Origin: Clostridia bacterium
GTDB lineage: Bacteria > Bacillota > Clostridia > Oscillospirales > CAG-272
Direction: 5' to 3'
DNA length: 44,964 bases
Assembly: GCA_017631325.1 (NCBI GenBank)
Contig: JAGBTM010000061.1
Location: forward strand, 1-44,964
Each line of letters begins with the position of its first letter. Within the stretch, counting starts at the first letter, position 1. The notes under the pieces are model-generated. The model worked only from the letters and a program-made list of their open reading frames with translations. It had not been told where the DNA came from and made no database searches. Shown in pieces: positions 5,520-43,250 of the stretch. The translations under genes and the position numbers were made by a program.

Positions 5520-5762
5520 TTAAGAAATTCGTGCGCGCTCGGGCTCGAGGTTACACGTGCGCGGGCGCACTTTACCCACCTGCGTATGTGCAACCAACTA
5601 TTTTGGGATATGCCCAACCAACTAATCTAGGGACTGTGCTCGGGCTACTCTAAAGACTGCGCTCGGGCTACTCTAAAGACTGCGCTCGGGCTACTCTAGG
5701 GATTGCGCTCGGGCTACTCTAGGGATTGCGGGGGTGATAATTTAATTAGGGCTGAGCTCGGC
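5520..5762. repeat. 23-bp tandem array after the large surface-protein gene
   Basis: Four near-identical 23-base units lie at 5632-5723 (core GCGCTCGGGCTACTCTA). A partial fifth runs to about 5731. An isolated core copy is at about 5535-5545, and a diverged copy (GAGCTCGGCTCAG) overlaps the stop codon of the gene ending at 5763. A short inverted repeat GTGCGC-GG-GCGCAC is at 5557-5570. No gene is visible in these 313 bases. The array lies immediately 3' of the surface protein on its transcribed strand. Confidence 0.85.
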
Positions 5763-8700
5763 TCAGAATTTACGCTTTTGTTCTGCGTTTTTATCCTTCA
5801 GCGTTACAACTCTTACGGCTTCTCCTCCCGTCAAGGCTATCATTTTTACAGCAGCAAGACTGAAATCGTTGGCATAGACCGAAAGAGGCTTGTCGATAAC
5901 GCCTCTGGCCAAAACCTTTAGATAGGCGGTATCGTACGGAACGAGGCTCTTTTGCTTTAAGGTGTTGACGTCCACGCGCTCGCCTGCAAGAAAGCTCTGG
6001 CTGAGAGTGTCTACGTTTATTATGCTTTTTGCCGTACCGCTTGTGTAGACGACCTCTCTTCCCTTTTTGACTAAGTCCTTTGCAAGCGCGTCGCTTATAA
6101 GCTCGTCTGCGCGCTCCGAGCTCATACCGCAGACCTCACTTTCTCGGCCTTCGGGTTTTAGGACAAGTGAGTATTTGTCAGCCGTAAATTCGTTCAAGGT
6201 CGAGCATTTGTAGGTATCGCTCACAAATTTCTCCTCGGGCGATACGTCCTCAGGGTCTTCCGTCGGGTAGGTTGTAGCTTCCTTGCGATAGCCTTCCTCG
6301 ACCGTATCGGCCTCGTTGTCTTCTGACGTGTCGGCATCGGCCTCGTCGTCTTCTGCCGTGTCGATTTCGGCCTCAAGGGCGTTTTCTTCGGTGTTAATCT
6401 CGCTATCGAGGCTCTTTTCTAATTTAAATTTATCTTGCGAGACGTCGCTCCGAGCTTCATGTTTAAGCGTCGAGGCAGATAGTATATCGGGGTTGAAAAT
6501 TTCTGTTACGTTTTTTGTTTTTTCTCTGTCAAGTCCCGCTCTGCTTCGTCTTTTACGGCTTGTCAAACGGAATTTGGCTATTGCCATAAAGTCGGCTATC
6601 CTCTCTCTTTCGAGATATAGAACGAACACGAAAAGCGCCGCGGCAATAAAAATAATTACGCCTATTACGATTTTTGCGCTAGTTTCTGGTGAGGGATATG
6701 AGAGGCTGTTTATTCTGCCGGGTGTGAGCGTTATCTTGTAGTTAGGGTTGTCCGAGCGAAGATAAATTTTGCCATCGCTTTCGTACTGCACAAGAGAAAG
6801 GCTCTCGCCGTCTACGACGCTACCCTTAGATATAACGTAGTTTGCATCGGATATATTATCCCAAAGATAGACGTTCATATCCGATACCGAAATAGATATA
6901 TTTCGAGCAGTTATCTCATACACGAGCGTACATTCAGAGCTTCCGTCCTCGAAAACATAGTTTTCGCTGTCGCTAAGACGCGCTACGAACGAGTATCTTC
7001 CAACCGATACGTAGGCGCCCTCCGACAAAAAGCTGTAAAGAGGAGATGACGTAGCGGGTGCGTGTGACTTGCCGTCGTATTCTACGGTAGCTACGGCAGG
7101 AATATTAACGCTCGCTTTTTTGATTTCAAAGGTACAGGGTGGTACTGACGGCGGATTATAGTTTTCAGCATCGTAGGAAAGTATAGCCTCGACGGTATAA
7201 ACGCCCGCCCTTACTGCGTCTATTTTTGTATATCCTATAACCGTTACTCCCTCCGGAAGTCCCGAGAGCGACGGTTGCTTTGAAAGGCCGTCGTAGTAGA
7301 ATACAGTATTTTGCCAAAGTGTTGAGGCTGTGTCGTAATCTGCGAGCGAAACGCTTATAGGCAGGGTCACCGAGAAGTCTTGGTGCTTAAAGGTGATTTT
7401 TGTGTGTCTTGCCCGCAGCTCTCCGCTGTCTTGATAGATTATCTGCATATCAGAGACCGACAGCTCTCTTTCGCTTCCGTCGTTGTATATAAGGCTGGCT
7501 GTTATATCGCCCTCACCAACGGTGCTGCACGCCTTGTAGGTTGATTTTGTCAGCTCAACCGAAAGCGAGACGGGTACGACCTTTATTATCTCAAAGCGCA
7601 TAGGCGAAGAGGTAAGAGATAGATAATTTCTGTTCTCTTTAGCGTAGGCTATCGCGTAATATACTCCAGGGACGGTGGGGGGCGCGCACTCGTTTTGAGC
7701 GCTCGGGTCGGTGAAATAACGAATAAGAGCCTCACCCGATTTTGCTATCGCAAAGACGTCAAGCTCCCCGCTCTCGTAAACGTCCTTTGCGTAGGGGGGC
7801 AAGGTCCAGGCGTTTTCAGCCTTAAGAATACTAAAGGAATACTCAGAATTAATGACGAAATAATCGCTTAGCTCACAATAGGCAACGGCTGTATATTCGC
7901 CAGCGTCTGCCACAGCTCCCGAAACAATAATTTTACACTCCGGCGCTGTTGCTTTTGGCGCTTGATTTTTGCCGTTGTAGACGAAGCTCTCACCCGTCCA
8001 GCTAACCGATATTCCCCTCGGTGTAACAGCAATGGTAGCCGTCATAGGCTCGGGTGAAATATAGTTTTTGCTCTGCGACTTAAAAGTAACGGTTACTGTT
8101 ACAGTACCGTCCGAGACGTGCGTTGCACCCTGCGAAAAGGAATACTCAACTCTAAGTCCGTCTGCGCCCACGGGAAGCTCACCTGAGAGGGTCGGAAAAT
8201 GCTCCTTGCCGTCAAAAACCGCGATTGCGTTATTGAACGACACACCCGTCATATCATAGCTCGCAGGTGATATCTTCCACTCGTGCGTTTGCTTTGGCGG
8301 AGCGTTATAATTTCTTTGGTCGAAGCTGAGCGTAGCCGTAGCGACGTATACTCCACACACGGTCGCCTTGGCGTCGGTATAGCCGATTACCGACACGCCC
8401 TCGGGCAGTCCCGAGAGCGAAACGCTCTTTTGTAGGCCGTCGTAAACAAAGTCCTCGCTTACCCAAAACACACCCGACATATCGTAGTCAGCCTTCAGTA
8501 TTTCAAAGGCTACGCTCTCAGATACGAAGGTGTAGTTTTTGTCATCGCTTATAGCGTAGGCCGTATAGCCCGCACCCGCCATGGTTTCAGAGCCGACGAC
8601 CCTAGAATACCGTATAACACCTCGAGCGTCAACGTACGAGGCGACAGGACATTTTGGTGTTCCGTCATAGACGAAGCTTACATTCTGCCACGATATTTCT

Positions 8701-11240
8701 GTCGAATACGGCAAAATTGTAAGTTTCGCCTCTATGCTATTTGGCGTTTCGTAGTTTTCGCTGTCTGTAAAAAACGAGAGGGTTACAGTATATTCTCCTA
8801 CGTCAAGACCGCCACCCGAGACGCTGATTTCAAGGGGTATTCCGTCCTCTCCAAGAATGTCAGGGCCATCGTACGTTACGCTCTGATAAAGAGAAGAATA
8901 GGTGCGCGTAAGGTCGAAAAAGGTCACCGAGGAGATATCGTAGACAGCACGCTTTACCGTCACCGGTATTCTTACCGACGCCCCATTATATTCAAGCGTA
9001 ACTGCGCTGTCGCCGTATCTAAAGCTGTCTGCTTGCTGATAGATTACGGGAAGATTTTCTCCGTTTATTATTTCTTCTCTTCCACTATTATAGCTTACTT
9101 TCAGAGAAAGACCCGTGAGCGAAATCAACTCAAACGCTCTGTATTCCGTCCTATCCGGCACTGTTACTACACTCAGCGACACTGCCCTCTCGTCGATGAC
9201 AGAAAATCTGACAGGCTCCGAAACAAGCTCGTTATAATTTCTGTCCGCGGGAACGTAGGCGCGCACGAAATACTCCCCGACCTTAGCCGAAAACTCGGTC
9301 TTATATTCACCGTATATGCTATCGGAAAAGAGGTATATCACCTCACCAAAGAGTGCCCTGGCGCGTACCGAGGCCTCGGTGCCGACGTAGACGTCGCAGG
9401 CTGATATTTCTTCGGTCCAGACGTTATTTGCCTTCATAATTTCAAAGGGTACGGTGACTATACCCTCTCCGTCTGCAAATCGGTAGTTTTCGCTGTCTGT
9501 GAGCGTCAGAGTAACGGCGTATATGCCTGCATCTGTGCAGGAAAGCTCGCTCACAGTATAAAGCGAGGTTTGATATACGGTTGGGGACTGCTCACGGCCG
9601 TTGTACACGCATTTTTCAATAGTGGGTATAGGCACGCTCCTCTTGTTTATAATTACGCTAATTCCCTCTGCGCGCACGACGACGCTGTCGGTTGAATAGC
9701 AGTAGGTGATTTCACAGCTATATACACCGCTGTCCGAAACGCTTTTAACCGAAAGATACGGGCCCTCAGATACGACAGAGCCGTTTTTGTACCATTTATA
9801 CTCGTATCTGCCTCCGTGGGCGTCAAGTGGGTGTAGAAGGGTATCAAATCCTATCTCTATTTTCCCGCCCGTATACTCTCCTGAATACGAGGAAAGCGAA
9901 AACTCGGGGGGCAAAAGCCTATACCCTGCGTAAAGCTTTGTGTCGGCTGTAACCGTAAAATTCTCCCCAAGAGGCACTCGCGAGGTGCTGTCGAGATACC
10001 AGCCGTCAAAGGCGTAGCCTGTTTTTTGCTCGGGCTCGGGCGGATTTACGCCATCACCTTGAAGAACAAGCTCCGAGCCTATCTGTACGCCGCCGCTGTA
10101 ATACTTGACGCTGTACGGCAAATAGACCGCGGCAAACGGTATTTTCGACAGTCCCGAATACTCGGAAAAGTAGCTCGCGGAATATTCACGTCCAACGCTA
10201 TCGAATATGCGTATTGAATAAAGAGAGCTTTGAGCATTAATATATGAAACGAGGGTGATATTTCCCTTTTTAAATTCTCCTAAAAACGACATCTTAAGAG
10301 GCTCAGTGGGGGTATACGGCACATCACCATTACCTATGGTAATTGGTTTGTCGGTTGAGAGGCCGTAGCCCATACCCGAGATTTTTGCAGAGCCTGTGAT
10401 AACGAGATTTGCACTATTGCTAATTGCGAGGGCACGCTCGGAAATTATCTCGCCCCCAAGCACCTCGCACCGACCTGCCATAGCCACGACGGTTGCCGTG
10501 TCGGAATTAGAGGAAATGCGCCCTGATACTAGCGTAAAAAGGCTTCTCTCTGACAACAGCCGCACAGCACTCGAGGCCGTCGAGGAAATATCGACCTCGC
10601 AAGCCTTAACCTCGCCACCCGATATAACGAGCGAGCCTCTGCCCGAGAGCAAAAGGTCAGCCTCACTTAAGTCAAGGCTCGAGCCTGTATTAACCGTTAT
10701 AGAAAATTCAGTCAAAATCTTACCCGAGAGAACGGTTTTACCCTGTGGAAGAGTTATATCGGTGTGTAGCGTAACGTTATCGAGCCATATTTTTTTGCCC
10801 GAGGCAAACTCAAGAAGCGTATCAAACGCGCCCTCTAACACCCTCTGACACTCTCCGTTGGCCGTCGCGCTGAGAACGTACACGCCGTCCTCCTCGGTGA
10901 TAACGTACTCGGCCACGGAATATTCGGCACCCGCGGTGCTTTGCGATAAGGCACCGTACATAGCCGAAGCGCCTTCGTCCTCGGCAAAAGTGTCCTCTAT
11001 ATCCCGAGTTCCTTTGTCGTCGGTAGAAACGCGCCTTTCAGTAGCTGCAGCGTCCTCGGTAGCTAGACCGTCCTCGTTCAGATAGTCCGAGAAGCTTAGT
11101 GTATCGGTGGGTGCGCTTACGCACCCTTCGGTGCTTGTCCCCCTCTCCGATAAATCGTCGAACAGCTCTGCCCTGCAGGTAATTGAAAGCATGGACGCTA
11201 TAGAAAGCGCAAAAATAGTAACGAGCAGTAATTTTTTCAT
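5763..11240 (-). CDS. Giant surface protein: MBG/Ig repeats, one TM helix, cytoplasmic L15-like domain
   Basis: 1825 residues. A signal peptide (MKKLLLVTIFALSIASM...) opens the protein. A region of short repeated beta strands (about 130-290) could be a beta-helix. One Listeria-Bacteroides repeat (SVKYYSGG...GYAFDGWYLD, about 375-440) and an Ig-like domain (KWYKNG...SDSGVYSCEI) follow. Then come many MBG-type repeats with a recurring FVYDG...LSGLPEG-V-VIGYT...NY..P pattern, interleaved with two Big_3-like domains. A transmembrane helix (IVIGVIIFIAAALFVFVLYL, about 1520-1541) is followed by a basic stop-transfer segment and an acidic linker (about 1590-1670). The last 90 residues (INVDTLSQSF...LKVLARGVIDKPLSVYANDFS...GGEAVRV) closely match the C-terminal half of ribosomal protein L15. 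Likely an adhesin or receptor-like protein with an inside L15-like module; its role is unknown. The start at 11240 has GAGG seven bases upstream. An upstream ATG at 11261 lies at the predicted transcript start and has no SD. Confidence 0.85.
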   Translation of the reverse strand: MKKLLLVTIFALSIASMLSITCRAELFDDLSERGTSTEGCVSAPTDTLSFSDYLNEDGLATEDAAATERRVSTDDKGTRDIEDTFAEDEGASAMYGALSQSTAGAEYSVAEYVITEEDGVYVLSATANGECQRVLEGAFDTLLEFASGKKIWLDNVTLHTDITLPQGKTVLSGKILTEFSITVNTGSSLDLSEADLLLSGRGSLVISGGEVKACEVDISSTASSAVRLLSERSLFTLVSGRISSNSDTATVVAMAGRCEVLGGEIISERALAISNSANLVITGSAKISGMGYGLSTDKPITIGNGDVPYTPTEPLKMSFLGEFKKGNITLVSYINAQSSLYSIRIFDSVGREYSASYFSEYSGLSKIPFAAVYLPYSVKYYSGGVQIGSELVLQGDGVNPPEPEQKTGYAFDGWYLDSTSRVPLGENFTVTADTKLYAGYRLLPPEFSLSSYSGEYTGGKIEIGFDTLLHPLDAHGGRYEYKWYKNGSVVSEGPYLSVKSVSDSGVYSCEITYCYSTDSVVVRAEGISVIINKRSVPIPTIEKCVYNGREQSPTVYQTSLYTVSELSCTDAGIYAVTLTLTDSENYRFADGEGIVTVPFEIMKANNVWTEEISACDVYVGTEASVRARALFGEVIYLFSDSIYGEYKTEFSAKVGEYFVRAYVPADRNYNELVSEPVRFSVIDERAVSLSVVTVPDRTEYRAFELISLTGLSLKVSYNSGREEIINGENLPVIYQQADSFRYGDSAVTLEYNGASVRIPVTVKRAVYDISSVTFFDLTRTYSSLYQSVTYDGPDILGEDGIPLEISVSGGGLDVGEYTVTLSFFTDSENYETPNSIEAKLTILPYSTEISWQNVSFVYDGTPKCPVASYVDARGVIRYSRVVGSETMAGAGYTAYAISDDKNYTFVSESVAFEILKADYDMSGVFWVSEDFVYDGLQKSVSLSGLPEGVSVIGYTDAKATVCGVYVATATLSFDQRNYNAPPKQTHEWKISPASYDMTGVSFNNAIAVFDGKEHFPTLSGELPVGADGLRVEYSFSQGATHVSDGTVTVTVTFKSQSKNYISPEPMTATIAVTPRGISVSWTGESFVYNGKNQAPKATAPECKIIVSGAVADAGEYTAVAYCELSDYFVINSEYSFSILKAENAWTLPPYAKDVYESGELDVFAIAKSGEALIRYFTDPSAQNECAPPTVPGVYYAIAYAKENRNYLSLTSSPMRFEIIKVVPVSLSVELTKSTYKACSTVGEGDITASLIYNDGSERELSVSDMQIIYQDSGELRARHTKITFKHQDFSVTLPISVSLADYDTASTLWQNTVFYYDGLSKQPSLSGLPEGVTVIGYTKIDAVRAGVYTVEAILSYDAENYNPPSVPPCTFEIKKASVNIPAVATVEYDGKSHAPATSSPLYSFLSEGAYVSVGRYSFVARLSDSENYVFEDGSSECTLVYEITARNISISVSDMNVYLWDNISDANYVISKGSVVDGESLSLVQYESDGKIYLRSDNPNYKITLTPGRINSLSYPSPETSAKIVIGVIIFIAAALFVFVLYLERERIADFMAIAKFRLTSRKRRSRAGLDREKTKNVTEIFNPDILSASTLKHEARSDVSQDKFKLEKSLDSEINTEENALEAEIDTAEDDEADADTSEDNEADTVEEGYRKEATTYPTEDPEDVSPEEKFVSDTYKCSTLNEFTADKYSLVLKPEGRESEVCGMSSERADELISDALAKDLVKKGREVVYTSGTAKSIINVDTLSQSFLAGERVDVNTLKQKSLVPYDTAYLKVLARGVIDKPLSVYANDFSLAAVKMIALTGGEAVRVVTLKDKNAEQKRKF

Positions 11241-11273
11241 CAGCCAACCTCTATTTGCCATTATTTACCAAAG

Positions 11274-42278: not shown

Positions 42279-43016
42279 ATGGAAAGATGCGACTTTGTAA
42301 ACGACGACTTAAAGCTTATACAAATTACCGACGGTCTTACCTTTGGCACGGACGCTCTTTTGCTCGCGGGATACGTTTCGGGTAAATACAGAAGTGGCGT
42401 TGAGCTTGGCTCGGGAAGTGGTATTATATCGCTTCTGCTGCTCTCTCGCGAAAAAATTGATAGAGTGTGCGCACTTGAGGTACAAGAGGAGTACGCCGAG
42501 CTAACAAAGAAAAATGCCGAGCTTAACGGCCTCTCGTACAGACTAGAGACAGTATGCGCTGACGCGCGCAATTATAAAGACAGACGCGACTTTGAGATAG
42601 CCTACACAAATCCACCGTATATGAAGCTGTCCTCGGGAAAGAAATGCACTCTTGACAAAAAGAATATAGCACGCCACGAGGTTATGGGTGATATACGCGA
42701 TTTTTGTATAGCGTCATCTAGGCTTCTAAAATACGGCGGAAGCTTCTACGCAGTTTACCGCACCGACAGACTAATCGACCTCACCTCAGCTATGAGAGAA
42801 ACAAAAATCGAGCCTAAGCGTATGACCTTTGTTCACGCAGACTCTGATGCCCTGCCCTCTATGGCGCTCGTTGAGGGACGTGTAGGTGGCAGGTGTGGAT
42901 TGACACTTACACCTCCCCTGCTTATTTACAAAGATAAGTCCCACACATCGTACAGTGAGGATATGAATTATATACTTGAGCACGGCTCATTCCCCGAAAA
43001 ATATATGAGAAAATAA
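42279..43016 (+). CDS. tRNA1(Val) (adenine-N6)-methyltransferase, TrmN6/YabB type
   Basis: Methylates N6 of A37 in tRNA1(Val) in the characterised E. coli homologue YfiC. 245 residues. SAM loop VELGSGSGI (about 41-49), acidic ALEVQEE, and the N6-amino methyltransferase motif NPPY (111-114) are all intact. The opening GLTFGTDALLLAGYV is the family hallmark. The SD is weak (AGGA about 12 bases upstream). Its last codons contain the first copy of the 37-bp array that follows. In Bacillus yabB is followed by yazA and rsmI; here yazA is missing. Confidence 0.92.
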   Translation: MERCDFVNDDLKLIQITDGLTFGTDALLLAGYVSGKYRSGVELGSGSGIISLLLLSREKIDRVCALEVQEEYAELTKKNAELNGLSYRLETVCADARNYKDRRDFEIAYTNPPYMKLSSGKKCTLDKKNIARHEVMGDIRDFCIASSRLLKYGGSFYAVYRTDRLIDLTSAMRETKIEPKRMTFVHADSDALPSMALVEGRVGGRCGLTLTPPLLIYKDKSHTSYSEDMNYILEHGSFPEKYMRK

Positions 43017-43250
43017 CGGCACGGCTCACCACACAAAGAAAGTATCAAAAATCAGGCACGGCTCACCACACAAAGAAAGTATCAAAAATCAGGCGTGGCT
43101 CACCTCACAAAGCAAGTATCAAAAATCAGGCGCGGCTCGCACACAAAGAAAGTATCAAAAACAGTGCCACCGTCAAGCAAGGATAAAAAACAGCAGCGCG
43201 GCTCTCTGACAAATAAAGAAAAAATGGCTACACGGCTCACTGCCAAACAT
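42980..43250 (+). repeat. 37-bp tandem array starting in the trmN6 coding end
   Basis: The core GCACGGCTCA lies at 42980 (inside the final codons), 43019, 43056, 43093 and 43130, with spacings of 39, 37, 37 and 37 bases. Units 43018-43054 and 43055-43091 are identical apart from none or one base; 43092-43128 and 43129-43163 are diverged; traces continue to about 43250. No spacers are present, so it is not a CRISPR. It fills the whole gap to rsmI. Confidence 0.88.

Follow-up and report, generated by a model that had tools for sequence, protein, structure and literature searches.

The stretch of DNA analysed here, referred to as the window, comprises the whole 44,964 nt of contig JAGBTM010000061.1 (assembly GCA_017631325.1, a Clostridia bacterium), and all coordinates given below are positions within it. 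On its minus strand the window encodes an intact surface protein of 1832 residues, the tail of which is a homologue of bacterial ribosomal protein L15 (uL15, gene rplO) and is here called L15L. The open reading frame (ORF) and its parts are as follows:

5763..11261, minus strand: whole ORF, 1832 aa, intact, surface protein with an L15-like tail
11240, minus strand: alternative start ATG of the same ORF, at residue 8
11175..11231, minus strand: signal-peptide hydrophobic core, residues 11–29, assigned by eye
9927..10115, minus strand: Listeria-Bacteroides repeat (PF09479), residues 383–445, above cut-off (34 bits against 27)
9702..9806, minus strand: Ig_2-like stretch, residues 486–520, below cut-off
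8955..9125, minus strand: Big_3-like stretch, residues 713–769, below cut-off (15.7 bits against 21.2)
7947..8093, minus strand: MBG_3-like stretch, residues 1057–1105, far below cut-off (9.6 bits against 25)
6612..6677, minus strand: transmembrane (TM) helix, residues 1529–1550, with a basic inner side (KFRLTSRKRRSR)
6126..6611, minus strand: cytoplasmic linker of 162 aa, with 43 D/E and 24 K/R
6063..6125, minus strand: conserved element of 21 aa with ADELISDxxAxxL, preceding L15L and modelled as two short helices
5814..6023, minus strand: L15L domain, residues 1747–1816, ending 16 residues before the end of the protein

The anatomy that an earlier note had read from the letters of the window, in which a single-pass surface protein continues behind its TM helix with an acidic linker and ends in an L15-like domain, is confirmed. 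The protein also has a signal peptide, and the ectodomain between this and the single TM helix amounts to about 1500 residues. Of the adhesin-like modules that had been placed outside, only the Listeria-Bacteroides repeat scores above its Pfam cut-off; the MBG and Big_3 matches score below theirs, and among 41 proteins of the genus MBG is matched in 7 and Big_3 in 4 (E≤0.01). In Gram-positive gut bacteria, surface proteins of the Listeria-Bacteroides repeat, MBG and Big_3 kinds have a signal peptide and, on the outside, repeats. Both traits are common to the window protein, which differs from these proteins in that it is held by a TM helix and keeps about 280 residues inside, ending in a conserved domain.

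The tail gives a match above cut-off to Pfam Ribosomal_L27A (PF00828, E 3.4e-10), and its predicted structure (AlphaFold, pLDDT 95.9) superposes on bacterial uL15 with 1.5 Å over 76 residues, a comparison which effectively covers residues 29–106 of the model and barely samples the added N-terminal helices. The L15-like tail that had been proposed is confirmed, and the finding is wider than the earlier note saw; PF00828 is matched at E≤0.01 in 41/41 of the genus proteins, with at least one of them (L066, 18.0 bits) under the cut-off of 21.5. L15L and uL15 have in common the PF00828 domain and the globular fold, but L15L lacks the basic N-terminal arm, has added N-terminal helices, carries KM in place of EK in its last helix, belongs to a separate clade and occurs as the tail of mostly membrane-anchored proteins. 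It also lies far below the cut-off of the L15 equivalog TIGR01071 (28.3 bits for the window protein against 77.95, over profile positions 70–142 only). The genome has, as had been suggested for checking, a separate true rplO, on another contig (C13) and adjoining secY, rpsE and rplR (neighbours identified by eye), so that the window protein is not the L15 of its genome, this role being taken by the spc-operon gene elsewhere. A third L15-like place is found on contig C1, at the C-terminus of a frame that the contig end truncates, so that just acidic repeats and the domain are visible. Chance similarity, a fusion created by an assembly error or a misplaced rplO might in principle generate such an ORF, and the window contig does come from a fragmented genome of 61 contigs; the results in hand nevertheless already weigh against an artefact, which we regard as scarcely conceivable.

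The survey of proteins combining TM segments with an L15-like domain places the window protein in a wider family, L15L, of 153 distinct proteins (176 ORFs before deduplication, many loci having been fetched from two sources). A named genome collection was scanned with a pattern requiring KMI (299 relatives, 80 kept), and the 93 distinct proteins whose loci were obtained by other means than this pattern form a control set. In the host genus at least one L15L match is present in 25 of the 35 other genomes, one divergent copy (G016) included; the same search gave none in 23 genomes belonging to the order's other families, where matches are in the rplO range or absent. Across the host class, among the matches listed, at least 5 of 391 genomes (own included) have a whole-domain L15L match above 90 bits, the weaker listed matches being rplO-sized frames, and a draw of 398 genomes from the phylum has L15L at E≤1e-20 in the genome of the window only. 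With a broader model, L15L is found in 21/151 genomes of the order of Candidatus Borkfalkia and in 13/296 genomes of the class of a Bacilli metagenome-assembled genome, and it is thus commoner in these two draws than in the class and phylum draws around the genome of the window, bearing in mind the broader model. Many record titles of the kept relatives refer to ruminant gut (roe deer, goat, sheep, yak, water deer) and others to rabbit or chicken. No relative was found among viral contigs, and no plasmid match was obtained with the window tail alone as query. Two separate observations come from this collection: one of the 41 members of the genus alignment (A1) has a Pfam CRISPR_Cas2 match (E 1.1e-11), and a very small genome of about 0.7 Mb (G832) has two L15L proteins, L187 and L194, whose open frames run to 1861 and 1778 aa. 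In the literature, among the matches listed and as judged by titles and abstract openings, an L15-like tail of surface proteins is not described, and nothing appears under the name 'uL15 family ribosomal protein'.

The position of the domain is nearly constant across the family, as L15L ends within 20 residues of the C-terminus in 150/153 proteins (the remaining three at 21, 22 and 129) and in 91/93 of the control set. The 119 proteins with a complete 5' end range from 175 to 5284 aa and 107 of them have a TM-like segment, called with a hydropathy window rather than a trained predictor; the last such segment falls within the first 500 residues in 58 and after a longer outer part in 49, with none in 12, and no complete protein above 700 aa has its sole TM-like segment in the first 60 residues. 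Between the last TM segment and the domain, the linkers of 117 proteins average 21% D+E and 13% K+R, with a median length of 249 aa when the RSF domain described next is counted in. About half of the family (79/153) has in this region, preceding L15L, an unannotated domain of 149 aa that we call RSF; the 53 linkers devoid of it have a median of 80 aa, and D+E exceeds K+R in 41 of them. RSF gave no Pfam match in the four RSF-bearing proteins that were searched without L15L and no PDB sequence match at E≤1, and it was found in 2/147 genomes of the class; by eye it may be reminiscent of DUF5655/DUF1801-like proteins. RSF also occurs on its own, as the C-terminal domain of neighbour ORFs of 285–426 aa without L15L near the L15L genes of L100, L130, L135, L147 and L151, and in the genome of the window as a pair within a 1071-aa ORF with a basic end and no L15L (contig C24, 17924–22027; L265, L267), near which lies a separate ORF with Listeria-Bacteroides-like repeats (by eye). 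As regards outer parts, that of the L15L protein at positions 1–650 of L203, which adjoins infC, is made up of successive copies of a cysteine/histidine repeat (EFIEGKCECGEVDPNYVPPHVH).

In a tree of the domain (FastTree, 74 columns) a single edge with support 0.994 parts 116/116 distinct L15L from 30/30 rplO. Comparing residues between the 153 L15L and 30 rplO sequences (the divergent L15L L029 is not among the latter), we observe that L15L keeps K80 in 152/153, A93 in 151/153, I97 in 148/153 and the GG loop in 153/153, whereas the last helix is rebuilt from EKIEAAGG to KMIxLTGG. At position 94, K or A in 24/30 rplO, L15L has V or I in 138/153; position 95 is K in 152/153 instead of E (23/30), position 96 is M or L in 152/153 instead of K (29/30), and position 99 is L in 141/153 instead of A (20/30). 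Outside this helix, position 75 is R in 107/153 L15L against N in 21/30 rplO, and position 81 is P in 90/153 against K in 19/30. As the KMI pattern could have biased the 80 loci obtained with it, we have repeated the count on the 93 others, and the result stands (K at 95 in 92, M or L at 96 in 92, L at 99 in 81). In L15L, polar or small positions of the last helix have thus turned hydrophobic; these may be covered by the added helices or may form a site for a partner.

These residues also bear on the suggestion of the earlier note that the tail could dock ribosomes or rRNA at the envelope. In a fuller form of this idea, L15L would still recognise the 50S subunit, or else an assembly intermediate from which uL15 is missing, and ribosomes would thereby be held at the membrane, where giant surface proteins could for example be translated locally or inserted. 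K80, G101 and G102 are indeed common to L15L and rplO, and the L15L domain is slightly more basic (net charge +2.5 against 0.0). However, the lysines of rplO at positions 96 and 81 are those replaced by M or L and by P, and position 103, K in 25/30 rplO, is K or R in 86/153 L15L. In L15 the basic, glycine-rich N-terminal arm inserts in 23S rRNA, and its motif, GKTxG[RK]GHKG, is found in 20/30 rplO and 0/153 L15L. With this motif missing and the last helix rebuilt, docking to the ribosome or rRNA is not borne out. True uL15 is moreover kept where seen, in the genome of the window and in 4/7 carrier genomes that give a match of rplO size at E≤1e-10; at this threshold the remaining three give none, which is not proof of absence.

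Gene neighbourhoods provide the other evidence on this matter. Lists were available for 152/171 loci of the family, in 66 synteny groups, from a crude ORF caller with antisense ORFs kept. In 8 of the 13 Bacilli genomes with L15L, the domain gene adjoins genes of translation or ribosome assembly (a raw count): it lies directly upstream of rpsL-rpsG-fusA in four (L097, L099, L106, L197/L235), upstream of infC and then rplT in one (L203/L232), and beside ysxC in three (L198, L200, L201), while a fifth relative of the rpsL type (L103/L195) is cut by its contig end. Eight of the neighbour proteins were confirmed by NCBIfam and the others by eye. The window gene likewise has a pseudouridine synthase and a tRNA-editing-like gene close by, on the far side of a transporter gene. 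Against this, the Bacilli neighbourhoods reduce to three arrangements and are not seen in the other four of the 12 genomes informative for neighbourhood. As for uL15 itself, two structural papers report that its C-terminal domain differs between the Enterococcus faecalis and Escherichia coli structures (PMC7530986) and that it has no clear density in any class of lithium chloride cores (PMC9687910). The protein would on these two grounds seem peripheral, which makes a tether to the ribosome possible. The mitochondrial protein Mba1/mL45 is not known to be related to L15. Having links to the large subunit as well as to the membrane (PMC8998825), it offers a precedent for membrane-linked ribosome attachment, although it has no ectodomain and the link between L15L and the ribosome is hypothetical. 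Taken together, we consider that a tether of this kind is unlikely, and that the broader proposal by which L15L links whole surface-protein repertoires of uncultured gut Bacillota to the translation machinery, be it the 50S subunit or assembly factors, is rather improbable.

A different type of evidence resulted from the analysis of 39 short L15L genes (complete, plus strand, up to 700 aa), 12 of which have an ORF of at least 700 aa directly upstream. In 11/39 the upstream ORF carries a C-terminal TM-like segment of its own and either stops no more than 17 nt from the L15L start or overlaps it; these ORFs, of 833–2982 aa and some cut by the locus end, are by eye surface proteins, and the 11 pairs include the near twins L124/L126 and L129/L145. 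The twelfth case, L121, is not such a pair, as the gap is of 215 nt and the L15L protein has no TM segment. For L116, L124 and L126, the surface gene falls into one cluster with long ORFs of L114 and L148. Judged by length and by the presence of two TM segments, these long ORFs are the ones that encode L15L there, so that relatives of a two-gene pair occur in L114 and L148 as a single ORF with both TM segments. The encoding of parts as one gene or as two abutting genes is a classical sign that they act together, and the occurrence of one ORF in some lineages and of two abutting or overlapping genes in others indicates that the outer and inner parts of L15L proteins belong together. Gene arrangement thus lends indirect support to the coupling of outside and inside implied by the outside-in receptor that the earlier note had envisaged. 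In such a receptor, binding of a ligand by the ectodomain would alter the tail and signal to a cytoplasmic partner, and RSF, a second conserved inner domain, could be in keeping with it; yet linkers of the length found here make a poor lever, and in the window protein Pfam matched no catalytic domain on the inner side. We see signalling of this sort as a doubtful possibility.

Sequence comparison shows the tail to be more tightly constrained than the ectodomain. Between the window protein and 21 members of its synteny group the median identity is 38% for the ectodomain, 31% for the linker and 59% for the tail, and in three members of the group the ratio of nonsynonymous to synonymous differences (pN/pS) is 0.20–0.24 for the tail and 0.48–0.59 for the ectodomain, with synonymous sites near saturation. 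A further case is a genome of about 1.6 Mb from the Borkfalkia order (G1268) with 13 L15L places (L214–L226), in which the last 105 residues of the 13 copies have a mean identity of 94.5% (88.6–99.0), whereas over the last 120 codons the DNA is only 84% identical (pS 0.55, pN 0.048, ratio 0.09). Tails so similar in protein with such a high pS fit old paralogues whose likeness selection has maintained better than they fit recent duplicates. Among the five long ectodomains of this genome, identity is about 24–37% outside the membrane-proximal part, which reaches up to 88%. The constraint on the tail weighs against another conceivable role, in which a quick-folding domain with no specific partner would act as a plug, so that giant surface proteins are not drawn across the membrane. 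Any stable fold would suffice for this purpose, and the C-terminal position agrees with it; the conservation among the 13 paralogues nonetheless exceeds what a plug needs, TM-less members exist, including proteins of 210–256 aa beside rpsL, and L15L is also borne by small TM proteins of 175–192 aa, with nothing large to retain. A retention plug is accordingly quite improbable in our view.

The explanation that we favour, and hold to be probable, is that L15L, derived from L15, is a cytoplasmic docking domain through which surface proteins with variable outer parts are coupled to a single conserved partner inside the cell. The globular half of L15 would have given rise to a paralogue that left the ribosome to become the docking domain of mostly membrane-anchored surface proteins: a variable ectodomain with adhesin-like repeats would lie outside, one or two TM helices would span the membrane, and a mostly acidic linker, with RSF in about half of the cases, would extend into the cytoplasm, where the C-terminal L15L would bind one conserved partner common to all paralogues in a cell. 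The conserved surface of the tail is the putative binding site, we infer that the putative partner is shared among paralogues, and a protein is likelier in this role than rRNA or the ribosome. A co-opted fold for protein binding would thus fit best among the options first raised.

A number of observations weigh against the docking domain as just described. The candidate partner is hypothetical. A TM-like segment is absent in 12/119 complete proteins, so that surface anchoring is not universal, and a long abutting surface ORF was not found in 28 of the 39 short L15L genes (27 and L121). The new hydrophobic positions may do no more than hold the added N-terminal helices. In addition, all 13 tails of G1268 are devoid of K71, R75 and G76, which are frequent elsewhere, and 11 of them have KL for KM; these three residues are therefore not needed in that genome, and the putative binding surface may differ between clades. 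The 13-copy case is, besides, one fragmented assembly in which several copies are cut by contig ends.

Elsewhere in the window, a tandem array with a unit of 23 bp in 4.7 copies (5622–5730) lies directly 3' of the L15L gene, within the 313-bp gap before the next ORF, and a second one with a unit of 37 bp in 4.1 copies (43010–43161) begins at the stop of a 245-aa ORF, by eye a methyltransferase. In an ORF at the contig edge (1–674), DUF1508, in two matched stretches, comes after Ala/Pro/Lys/Thr repeats with a unit of 18 bp.

If surface proteins do have an L15 paralogue for their inner end, this would be a clear case of a ribosomal protein leaving the ribosome for the envelope. A ribosomal-protein label based on PF00828 alone can mislead, and the family survey has also revealed RSF, a second unnamed domain. 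If the link to the translation machinery were true, L15L would provide a physical connection from envelope to ribosome built from the own paralogue of a ribosomal protein, duplicated once. Through this family, many giant surface proteins from gut bacteria that so far lack an explanation gain a recognisable inner domain, and a question arises that is directly testable, namely what the binding partner of L15L is.
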